Positions 20,937 to 24,427 of a stretch of 64,000 nucleotides of DNA are shown in pieces. Source of the stretch: Deltaproteobacteria bacterium (GTDB lineage: Bacteria > Myxococcota > Myxococcia > Myxococcales > Anaeromyxobacteraceae); contig JACRMN010000007.1 in NCBI GenBank assembly GCA_016214955.1, forward strand, positions 62,001 through 126,000, given 5' to 3'. The notes below the pieces were generated by a model. It was given only the letters and a program-made list of their open reading frames with translations. It was not told where the DNA came from and did no database searches. Position 1 is the first letter of the stretch, and each line of letters opens with the position of its first letter. The position numbers were made by a program, and so were the translations under genes.

Positions 20937-23489
20937 TCACGCCAGCCTCTCCTGCAGCCTCGCCAGCGCGGCCACCAGGTCCGGCTTCTCGCCGAGCACC
21001 GGCAGGAGCGGGTCGGCCTTCTGCCGGCGCAGGCGCGCCGGCATGGTGCGGATGGTGTAGCTGCGCGGGTCGAGCTTCGGGTTCACCTCGCTCCAGCGCA
21101 GCGGCGCCGAGACCGGCGCACCGGGGCGGGGCCGCACGCAGTAGGGGGCGGCGATGGTCTTCCCCTGGCCGTTCTGCAGCGTGTCCACGTACACCTTGCC
21201 GCCGCGGGCCGCAGGCGTGCGCACCATGGTGGCGATGGCGGGCAGCCGGTCGCAGAGCACCCGGCCCAGCAGGCCCGCGAGCTGCCGCGACTGCTCGTGG
21301 GTGAGCTGCTGCCCCAGCGGGACGAGGAGGTGCAGGCCCGACTGGCCGGTGGTCTTCACGTGGCAGGGGAGCTCGATGTCGTCGCAGAGCTCCCTGGCGG
21401 CGCGGGCGATCTGGATCACATGGGCGAAGGGCGCCTCCTTGGGGTCGAGGTCGATGATGCACCAGTCGGGCCGCGAGAGCTCCGGCGCCCGGCTCGACCA
21501 GAGGTGGATGGGGATGGTGCCCAGGTTGGCCAGGTAGAGCAGCGTCCGCTCGTCGTCGCAGACGAAGTGCTCCACCTCCGCGCCCCGCTCCTCGCTCCAC
21601 ACCCGGACGCGCCGCACCCAGGCCGGCGTCCACTCCGGCGCGTCCTTCTGGAAGAAGGACTTGCCGTGGATGCCGTCGGGGTAGCGGGTGAGCACCAGCG
21701 GCCTGTCCTTCAGGTAGGGCAGGAACCAGGGCGCCACGGTGCGGTACCACTCGATGAGATGACCCTTGGTGAACCCGTCCTCGGGGAAGTAGGGCTTCTC
21801 CAGGTTGGAGAAGACGAGCGGCGCCTCCTCCCCCTGACCCTCTCCCCCGCCGGCGCGGGGGAGAGGGAAGGGAGGTTCGCGGCCGGGAGCGCTCTTCTCC
21901 CTCTCCCCCTCCCTCACGCACTCCTCCGGGCGCTTGTCCTCCCGCAGCCGCACGAAGGCCGGGTGGCGCAGCAGCCCCTCCTCCGTCCACTCCAGGAACC
22001 GCACCTCCACGCAGAGCGTCGGCTCCACCCAGGTGGAGCCCTTCTGCGCCTCCCTGGGCACCGGGCAGACCGGCTCGGGGCGCCGCTGCGCCTCCAGCCG
22101 ATCGCGCAGCGCCTGGAGCTCCCTGTCGGTGAAGCCGGTGCCGACGCTCCCGGCGTACACCAGGCCGCACCCGTCGTGCACGGCCAGCTGCAGCGCCCCC
22201 AGCCCCACCCGGCCGCTGCCGCCCGGCGCCGTGAACCCGATGACGGCGAGATCGCCGGTGCGCTCGGCCCGCACCTTCCGCCAGGCGGGCGAGCGCCCCT
22301 CGCGGTAGGGGGCGTCGGCCCGCTTCCCCACCATCCCCTCCAGCCCCTGGGCCCGCGCCGCCTCGAAGAACGCCTCGCCCCGCTCGGCCACGTGGTCGGC
22401 GAAGCGCAGCGGCCCCTCCCGGGGAAGGAGCCGCCGCAGCGCCTCCTTGCGGGCCAGCAGCGGCAGGCCGCGCAGGTCGAGGTCGCCGAGCGCGAGGAGG
22501 TCGAAGGCCATGAGCGTGGCCGGCTGCCCCACGCTGGCCTGCGCCGCGGCGGCGCCCTCCAGCCGGGCCCGCTGCTGCAGCGCCTGGAAGCGGGGTTTGC
22601 CGTCGGTGCCCAGCACCACGATCTCGCCGTCGAGGAGCGCCCGCTCGCAGGGCAGGGCCCGCAGCGCCCGCGCGATCTCCGGCCAGGCGGCCGTGCCCGG
22701 GGCGCCGCTGCGGTAGCGCACCACGGCCCCGGCGCCGCGCCGCTCGCAGAGCGCCCGCCAGCCGTCCCACTTGATCTCGAAGATCCAGCCCGGCCCGCCG
22801 AACGGCCCCGGCGCCGCCTGCGCCAGCATGGGGCGCACCCTCTCCGCCTCCACCGCGCGGCGCACCGCCCCCTGCGCCACGAGCTCGGCCTCGAGGCCGG
22901 CGGTGCGCGCCGGCCCCTCCTTGAGCTCGGCCAGGGTGAGGCCCGAGAGCACCGAGGCGTCGGAGGGTGGGCGCTTCCTGCCCGGGTCGGCCCAGGCGTC
23001 GCGGTGCTTGAGGAGGAGCCACTCCCTGGGGTTGCGCCTGGTGCGGACCAGCGTCCACTCGCCGCGCAGCTTGTAGCCCTGCAGCGTGAAGAGGAGCTTC
23101 CCCTTCCGGTACCCCTCGTCGAAGTCGCCGATGGGCGTCCAGGCCCCGCGGTCCCAGACGATGACCGGCCCGGCGCCGTACTCGCCCCGGGGGATGATCC
23201 CCTCGAAGTCGGCGTACTCCACCGGGTGGTCCTCCACCTCCACCGCCAGCCGCTTGTCGGCCGGGTCGGCCGAGGGGCCCTGGGGCACGGCCCAGCTCTT
23301 CAGCACCCCGCCCCACTCCAGCCGGAAGTCGTGGTGCATGCGGCGGGCGGCGTGCTGCTGGATCACGAACTGGAGCGGCCCCGCGCCCTTCGCCTGGCCG
23401 TGAACAGACCCGAATGGTTCGGGGGTGCGGGATGCGGCCCGCTTCTGGCGATATCGGGCCAGCGGGTCGGTTTCGGGCCTCGGCGCCAC
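20937..23489 (-). CDS. ligD: LigD, multidomain ATP-dependent DNA ligase for NHEJ
   Basis: About 850 residues in the order phosphoesterase, ligase, polymerase. The 3'-phosphoesterase domain shows QHAARRMHHDFRLEWGG and PRGEYGAGPVIVWDRG. The ligase domain carries the lysine motif EIKWDGWR and DGEIVVL. The primase-like polymerase domain shows LEKPYFPEDG, GIHGKSFFQKD and the metal motif IDLDP. It repairs double-strand breaks with Ku, encoded divergently at 23510. GTG 23489 is chosen because it lies six bases after a -10 box shared with ku, whereas an ATG at 23516 would overlap the ku coding start. A palindromic repeat lies in the ligase-polymerase linker (21838-21867). Confidence 0.93.
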   Translation of the reverse strand: MAPRPETDPLARYRQKRAASRTPEPFGSVHGQAKGAGPLQFVIQQHAARRMHHDFRLEWGGVLKSWAVPQGPSADPADKRLAVEVEDHPVEYADFEGIIPRGEYGAGPVIVWDRGAWTPIGDFDEGYRKGKLLFTLQGYKLRGEWTLVRTRRNPREWLLLKHRDAWADPGRKRPPSDASVLSGLTLAELKEGPARTAGLEAELVAQGAVRRAVEAERVRPMLAQAAPGPFGGPGWIFEIKWDGWRALCERRGAGAVVRYRSGAPGTAAWPEIARALRALPCERALLDGEIVVLGTDGKPRFQALQQRARLEGAAAAQASVGQPATLMAFDLLALGDLDLRGLPLLARKEALRRLLPREGPLRFADHVAERGEAFFEAARAQGLEGMVGKRADAPYREGRSPAWRKVRAERTGDLAVIGFTAPGGSGRVGLGALQLAVHDGCGLVYAGSVGTGFTDRELQALRDRLEAQRRPEPVCPVPREAQKGSTWVEPTLCVEVRFLEWTEEGLLRHPAFVRLREDKRPEECVREGEREKSAPGREPPFPLPRAGGGEGQGEEAPLVFSNLEKPYFPEDGFTKGHLIEWYRTVAPWFLPYLKDRPLVLTRYPDGIHGKSFFQKDAPEWTPAWVRRVRVWSEERGAEVEHFVCDDERTLLYLANLGTIPIHLWSSRAPELSRPDWCIIDLDPKEAPFAHVIQIARAARELCDDIELPCHVKTTGQSGLHLLVPLGQQLTHEQSRQLAGLLGRVLCDRLPAIATMVRTPAARGGKVYVDTLQNGQGKTIAAPYCVRPRPGAPVSAPLRWSEVNPKLDPRSYTIRTMPARLRRQKADPLLPVLGEKPDLVAALARLQERLA
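21838..21867. repeat. Perfect palindromic repeat inside ligD
   Basis: A 13-bp perfect inverted repeat (arm CCCTCTCCCCCGC) with a 4-nt loop, flanked by further CTCCCC/GGGAGG runs across about 21825-21920. It is translated in frame as the linker between the ligase and polymerase domains. The sequence resembles dispersed short palindromic (REP-like) elements of high-GC genomes, and a related hairpin occurs at 33799-33830. Confidence 0.65.
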
Positions 23490-23495
23490 GCCCTT

Positions 23496-23503
23496 CTTAT
23501 AAT
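23496..23503. promoter_or_regulatory. Shared bidirectional -10 box of ku and ligD
   Basis: On the plus strand TATAAT (23498-23503) ends six bases before the ku ATG at 23510. On the minus strand TATAAG (23501-23496) ends six bases before the ligD GTG at 23489. One 8-bp TA-rich element therefore serves both directions with symmetric spacing. That places +1 at or beside each start codon and implies leaderless mRNAs. No good -35 is evident. Confidence 0.65.
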
Positions 23504-23509
23504 GCGCCC

Positions 23510-24427
23510 ATGGCACCGCGATCGATCGCCACCGGGACCATCTCCTTCGGTCTGGTCTCCATCCCGGTGAAGCTCTTTGCCGCCACCGAGGCCGCGGCCG
23601 GCATCTCCTTCAACCTGCTTCACCAGAAGTGCGGCTCCCGGGTGAAGCAGCAGTACGTCTGCCCGCAGGACGGCGAGGTGGTGCCCCGCGACGCCATGGT
23701 GAAGGGGTACGAGTTCCAGAAGGACAAGTACGTCACCTTCAGCGCCGAGGAGCTGAAGACGCTGGAGCAGGCCGCCACCCAGGCCATCGAGATCGCCGAG
23801 TTCGTGCCCGCCGAGCGGGTGGACGCCGTCTTCTACGAGAAGGCCTACTTCCTCGGGCCCGACCGCGGCGGCGCCAAGGCCTACCGGCTGCTGGCCGAGG
23901 CGCTCAAGCGCGCCGGCAAGGCGGCGGTGGCCCGCTATGCGGCGCGCGGCAAGCAGTACCTGGTGCTCCTGCGGCCCCTCTCCGGCCGGCTGGTGATGCA
24001 GCAGCTCTTCCACGCCGACGAGGTGCGCTCCATCGAGGAGATCCCGGTGGACGAGGCCGAGCTCAAGGAGCCGGAGATCCAGCTGGCGCTGCAGCTCGTG
24101 GAGCAGACCGCCACCGACGCCTTCCACCCCGAGGCCTACACGGACGAGGTGAAGGCGCGGACGCTGGCTCTCATCGACCAGAAGATCCAGGGGCAGGAGA
24201 TCGCCGTGGCGCCGGCCGAGGAGCCGCGCGCCCAGGTCATCGACCTCATGGAGGCGCTGAAGGCCAGCCTGGCCGCGGGCCCGGAGCGACAGGCCGGTGC
24301 CGCACCTGCTGCCGCACCGGCTGCTGCGCCCGCCGCGGAGGCGGCGCCCGCGCCGGCCCCGGAGCGCAAGGCGCCCAAGCGCGCCCCGCGCGAGGAGCCG
24401 GCGAAGGGGCGGGCCGCGAAGAAGTAA
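23510..24427 (+). CDS. ku: Ku protein, bacterial NHEJ end-binding factor
   Basis: 305 residues. The Ku core is clear: MAPRSIATGTISFGLVSIPVKLF, LLHQKCGSRVKQQYVCPQDG, KGYEFQKDKYVTF, FVPAERVDAVFYEKAYFLGPD, LLRPLSGRLVMQQLFHADEVR. The C-terminal extension is Ala/Pro/Lys-rich (PAAAPAAAPAAEAAPAPAPERKAPKR), typical of the unstructured basic tails of bacterial Ku. It binds broken DNA ends as a homodimer and recruits LigD, encoded divergently. The ATG at 23510 is the first conserved residue and lies directly after the -10 box, consistent with a leaderless transcript. Confidence 0.95.
   Translation: MAPRSIATGTISFGLVSIPVKLFAATEAAAGISFNLLHQKCGSRVKQQYVCPQDGEVVPRDAMVKGYEFQKDKYVTFSAEELKTLEQAATQAIEIAEFVPAERVDAVFYEKAYFLGPDRGGAKAYRLLAEALKRAGKAAVARYAARGKQYLVLLRPLSGRLVMQQLFHADEVRSIEEIPVDEAELKEPEIQLALQLVEQTATDAFHPEAYTDEVKARTLALIDQKIQGQEIAVAPAEEPRAQVIDLMEALKASLAAGPERQAGAAPAAAPAAAPAAEAAPAPAPERKAPKRAPREEPAKGRAAKK

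Follow-up and report, generated by a model that had tools for sequence, protein, structure and literature searches.

Genes and Start Codons of the ku/ligD Locus

The DNA analysed here, a window of 64 kb, carries the two genes of a bacterial NHEJ pair, ku and ligD, which are divergently oriented with their start codons 20 bp apart (Table 1). Their products have the composition expected of such a pair, namely a Ku beta-barrel on the one side and, on the other, a LigD of three domains (3'-phosphoesterase, ligase, and primase-polymerase), all of which were recognized by Pfam above the cut-off. The assigned ku ATG is consistent with an N-terminus, M(A)xRS..., that is kept among relatives, and with those relatives that carry an in-frame stop codon 3–15 nt upstream. 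Because such stops lie 5' of the conserved start in several relatives, a longer ku beginning at ATG 23414 was rejected. For ligD, the assigned GTG is the sole ATG, GTG, or TTG in frame before the 3'-phosphoesterase domain, apart from a GTG at 23516 that lies inside ku, and the next in-frame start candidate occurs 123 nt downstream. Farther into the gene, the segment linking the ligase domain to the polymerase domain (21822–21911) holds an in-frame, GC-rich inverted repeat, and copies resembling it (69–75%) were found at L074:9432-9581.

Table 1. Genes and predicted or candidate promoter elements at the ku/ligD locus (positions within the window).
Feature	Position	Strand	Remarks
ku (305 aa)	23510..24427	+	starts at ATG 23510 and is predicted to be leaderless; Ku domain PF02735 (Pfam), E 6e-50
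ligD (850 aa)	20937..23489	-	start GTG 23489; Pfam LigD_N, DNA_ligase_A_M, DNA_ligase_A_C, LigD_Prim-Pol
ku/ligD intergenic gap	23490..23509		20 bp; predicted to hold the promoter core alone
TATAAT, predicted ku -10 element	23498..23503	+	predicted +1 ~23510; kept 5' of ku in relatives
CATTAT, candidate ligD -10 element	23499..23504 (read 23504-23499)	-	18-bp bidirectional geometry
TATAAG, ligD -10 element of the initial annotation	23496..23501 (read 23501-23496)	-	predicted +1 23489, zero leader

Read on the forward strand, the region runs from the complement of the ligD start codon (CAC, 23487–23489) through GCCCTT, CTTATAAT, and GCGCCC to the ku ATG. The initial annotation described the 8-mer CTTATAAT (23496–23503) as a single TA-rich sequence that provides TATAAT for ku and TATAAG for ligD, each hexamer ending exactly six bases before its start codon, and the sequence reads precisely so: TATAAT, GCGCCC, and ATG follow one another on the plus strand, as do TATAAG, AAGGGC, and GTG on the minus strand.

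On neither side of the box does the window offer a recognizable -35 or extended -10 element. A weak T/G enrichment 20–22 bp before the box, seen across all loci, was considered as a -35 element and dismissed, as it is absent from the window. Also rejected were a Shine-Dalgarno role for the AAGG before the ligD GTG, the spacing being just 2 nt, and a conserved operator palindrome, which had been prompted by CTCCCTTAATTTAAGGAGG in two relatives (L003 and L020) and is absent from the window and from other clades.

A Predicted Leaderless Start for ku

Leaderless genes are known to carry a TANNNT motif ~12 bp upstream of their start codon (PMC3160421), as is also described for M. tuberculosis (PMC3898074), and genes of this kind have been reported in eight of 33 delta-Proteobacteria genomes (PMC3160421). 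ku resembles them both in its box-to-start distance, with TATAAT beginning 12 nt before the ATG, and in having no Shine-Dalgarno sequence at a usable spacing, the start codon being preceded by GCGCCC. In the window, whose GC content is 74.7%, TATAAT occurs once, both strands counted, while the pattern TATAATN{0,20}ATG occurs twice in the whole 5.3-Mb genome, with a spacer of 6 nt in both cases. Moreover, in a 450-kb sample of the genome, with crude gene calling, TAnnnT peaked at a distance of exactly 6 nt upstream of likely start codons, with 13.5 per 1000 candidate starts compared with 0.2 for internal ones, which argues that leaderless genes exist in this genome. By its sequence, the genome thus appears to possess a leaderless gene class, to which ku, with its consensus box, would belong.

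Conservation was followed in Ku homologues of the window's subfamily, collected from the same phylum and representing 46 distinct loci. TAnnnT ends 4–12 nt before ku in 37 of these, compared with a mean of 3.2 and a maximum of 10 in 2000 trials in which the 60 bp upstream of ku were permuted, and 35 of 39 boxes end 6–9 nt before the ku start. The middle three bases of the box vary freely (TATAAT, TATCAT, TACGGT, TAATTT, TAGCGT), leaving the TA and the T as the sole fixed positions, a constancy that is conditional on the box search used. No core Shine-Dalgarno 4-mer (GGAG, GAGG, AGGA) was found 4–12 nt from ku in the 30 loci with a close divergent ligase gene. In a second Ku subfamily, the box was present in one of 14 loci, and Shine-Dalgarno sequences were often present. 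That ku is leaderless from TATAAT, as the initial annotation had predicted, is strongly supported by the spacing of the box across many genera and by the missing Shine-Dalgarno sequence.

Several loci depart from this pattern. In one relative (L041), ku has no adjacent box, starts ~25 nt further on, and is provided with CGGAGG. In another (L064), ku again has no adjacent box, lies 114 nt from ligD, and has GAGGAG as its Shine-Dalgarno sequence; a separate TAGAAT box is found 9 nt 5' of the ligD ATG there, and the two genes appear to be uncoupled. In both loci, ku thus has a Shine-Dalgarno sequence in place of the box, which is in keeping with the leaderless reading of the other loci, as is the Shine-Dalgarno-like leader of a ligD that lies 67 nt from ku in L031. 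In relatives of genus g3, AAGGAGG precedes the ku ATG by 1 nt, which was counted against a shared leaderless promoter. In L009 (G010), the ku ATG is still preceded by TATAAT at a six-base spacing, and the opposite strand apparently holds just a short N-terminal remnant of ligD (SRTPEPS). Two incomplete genomes of the window organism's genus yielded no ku match.

The Ligase Strand of the Box

Divergent transcription start sites 7–25 bp apart are regarded as a bidirectional promoter (PMC10268837). The preferred separations include 18 and 23 bp (PMC12825309), and at 18 bp the -11A and -7T of the two strands are reciprocally paired (PMC10268837). The window shows this pairing, since A23499 and T23503 of the plus-strand box serve reciprocally as T6 and A2 of CATTAT on the minus strand. 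CATTAT keeps A2 and T6, with C replacing T1; lying 9 nt from the GTG, it would place the ligD +1 at ~23492, leaving a leader of ~3 nt and a predicted start-site separation of 18 bp. TATAAG, for which the separation would be 21 bp, has G in place of T6, a base that belongs to the two key positions of a -10 element. The ligase strand of the window thus holds no perfect TAnnnT, CATTAT and TATAAG each missing one key position, and no TANNNT stands ~12 bp before the ligD start. At bidirectional promoters, -18T favours transcription in its own direction (PMC10268837). In the 18-bp geometry it is present for ligD, as the T opposite the A of the ku ATG, and absent for ku, where C occupies 23492; if the published rule is applied here, the ku start codon itself would favour the ligD direction.

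In 30 loci, among them the window, a divergent ligase start lies 13–35 bp from the ku start; the partner was judged to be LigD or a LigD-like ligase/polymerase from matches to the window LigD and from N-terminal sequence, and ligase start codons in the relatives were chosen by hand. A ligase-strand TAnnnT overlapping the ku box was found in 22 of these 30 close pairs, all 22 among the 29 with a plus-strand box, and the window belongs to the minority without a perfect one. When the plus box was held and the remaining bases were shuffled, none of 5000 trials reached 22 (mean 8.4, maximum 17), and with one locus per clade there were 10 ligase-strand boxes against 5.0 expected (P 0.006), although P values here overstate independence because the sequences are related. 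Among 25 two-strand box pairs, the implied start-site separation is 18 bp in 13, 23 bp in 10, and another value in two, the minus box being offset such that A2 and T6 are reciprocally paired (18 bp) or the TA is shared (23 bp). These distances alone are not independent proof, because the symmetry of TAnnnT favours the same overlaps even by chance. Stronger arguments are the excess of ligase-strand boxes and the occurrence of a minus box at the 18- or 23-bp spacing in 21 of 26 close divergent loci versus one of the 11 remaining loci, a comparison group that includes loci with the divergent ligase further away or without a canonical start. In one relative, L023, the divergent ligD has no ATG, GTG, or TTG near its conserved N-terminus, and an ATT preceded by AGGAG could be the start.

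In the relatives, the ligase start usually lies 8–17 nt past the minus box, so the ligD leader would be a few nucleotides long, not zero. The initial proposal that ligD shares the ku box therefore gains from the divergent layout and the overlapping minus boxes, but its choice of hexamer does not match the relatives, whose register corresponds in the window to CATTAT and not to TATAAG at exactly six bases; by this comparison, CATTAT is probably the better-placed -10 candidate. Its further expectation, that both mRNAs begin at or beside their initiation codons, is strongly supported for ku and, for ligD, would apply in the modified form of a short predicted leader.

Alternative Readings

Taken together, these features suggest that the ku/ligD gap is probably a conserved minimal bidirectional promoter giving rise to leaderless or nearly leaderless mRNAs, the ku half of this reading being well supported and the ligD half likely but weaker. 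A sub-variant would retain TATAAT and TATAAG in the 21-bp register, with ligD exactly leaderless at 23489. TATAAG fits five of six consensus bases at the right distance from the GTG, and 21 bp falls within the range of mapped separations that count as bidirectional (PMC10268837), but its G stands at T6, among the best conserved -10 positions, and a TAnnnT box pair in that register occurs in none of the relatives, making this arrangement somewhat unlikely.

Less probable still is that the box drives leaderless ku alone, the ligD promoter being located elsewhere, inside ku or further off, and the minus-strand likeness being a by-product of TAnnnT symmetry. Every TAnnnT indeed yields NAnnnT on the opposite strand, the imperfect minus-strand boxes of the window would fit, and in one relative (L031) ligD lies 67 nt from ku and has a Shine-Dalgarno-like leader. 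However, of the 39 TAnnnT in the window, no second one lies within ~300 bp of the box on either strand, and the first ~140 bp of ku are devoid of TA dinucleotides, which makes the shared box the best ligD promoter available. The ligase start is, furthermore, held close to ku in 30 loci, and ligase-strand boxes are in excess there, yet rare in the comparison loci. Finally, the motif is short and the window lacks a -35, so a TA-rich stretch that arose by chance, with no promoter function, might be imagined; this is highly improbable, given that the position and the TA...T core are kept across many genera while the surrounding region diverges and that TATAAT is extremely rare in the window genome.

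Proposed Mechanism and Relation to Known Promoters

According to the shared-promoter reading, RNA polymerase with a housekeeping-type sigma factor would open the TA-rich -10 region CTTATAATG (23496–23504) in either orientation. In the rightward direction, the +1 set by TATAAT would be at about 23510, the A that begins the ku ATG; in the leftward direction, the opposite strand of this element, either as CATTAT or, with lower probability, as TATAAG, would set it at 23492–23489, that is, 3 nt before the ligD GTG or at the GTG itself. With the +1 at or near both start codons, both mRNAs would be without a Shine-Dalgarno leader, ribosomes would read them as messages with no leader or almost none, and the two genes may be co-regulated or mutually exclusive in their transcription. 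Steric exclusion of two polymerases at a bidirectional promoter follows from the literature, so competition between the directions, as the initial annotation suggested, is sterically possible. In five bidirectional promoters of E. coli, however, basal activity was too low for polymerases to compete (PMC12825309); by analogy, competition between ku and ligD would not be expected at basal activity and would arise at most under activation.

In bacteria, -10 elements that act in both directions are already established, and so are leaderless genes with a TANNNT box. The ku/ligD locus is like the shared symmetric -10 promoters of Warman, Grainger and colleagues (PMC12825309, PMC10268837) in its use of one -10 region on both strands, in the reciprocal -11A/-7T with 18- or 23-bp geometry, and in its divergent genes. 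It differs in that, on either side, the start codon lies at the predicted start site or a few nucleotides from it, whereby the whole intergenic region would be promoter core, and in occurring in Myxococcota-type genomes, conserved at one orthologous locus. What sets ku apart from the TANNNT leaderless genes described in PMC3160421 and PMC3898074 is that ku and ligD, as divergent genes, appear to share one box. A parallel is found in prpD/Rv1129c of M. tuberculosis, different genes that are likewise adjacent and divergent, with mapped leaderless mRNAs (PMC3898074). A literature search found no paper on myxobacterial ku/ligD transcription. What seems to be new is a conserved locus that fuses a bidirectional -10 with leaderless starts, the whole gap being promoter core.

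Other Possible Shared-Box Pairs and Significance

In all 18 members of the window organism's family that were examined, a TATAAT box (or TATATT, TATCAT, TAACAT) located 6–7 nt before nadK is shared between nadK and a divergent rarA, whose start is 22–42 bp away (loci L094 and L074; in the organism's own genome, C1:163467-163481, minus strand). This seems to be a second conserved shared-box pair of the ku/ligD design in the family. Elsewhere in the window genome (L085:7869-7886), closely spaced divergent gene-like ORFs have TACAGT 6 nt and TAGATT 7 nt before their candidate starts on opposite strands.

More broadly, and quite tentatively, it is conceivable that the ku/ligD arrangement is a design conserved throughout the phylum, whereby leaderless or nearly leaderless messages from a single -10 box encode Ku and its partner ligase, with the polymerase choosing one gene per opening; if so, the supply of both NHEJ proteins would be linked. 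With predicted start sites that are precise to a few bases, ku/ligD, an orthologous locus kept across many genera, offers a compact natural case for studying how polymerase is partitioned at bidirectional promoters and a test case for the use of leaderless messages in a two-protein repair machine.
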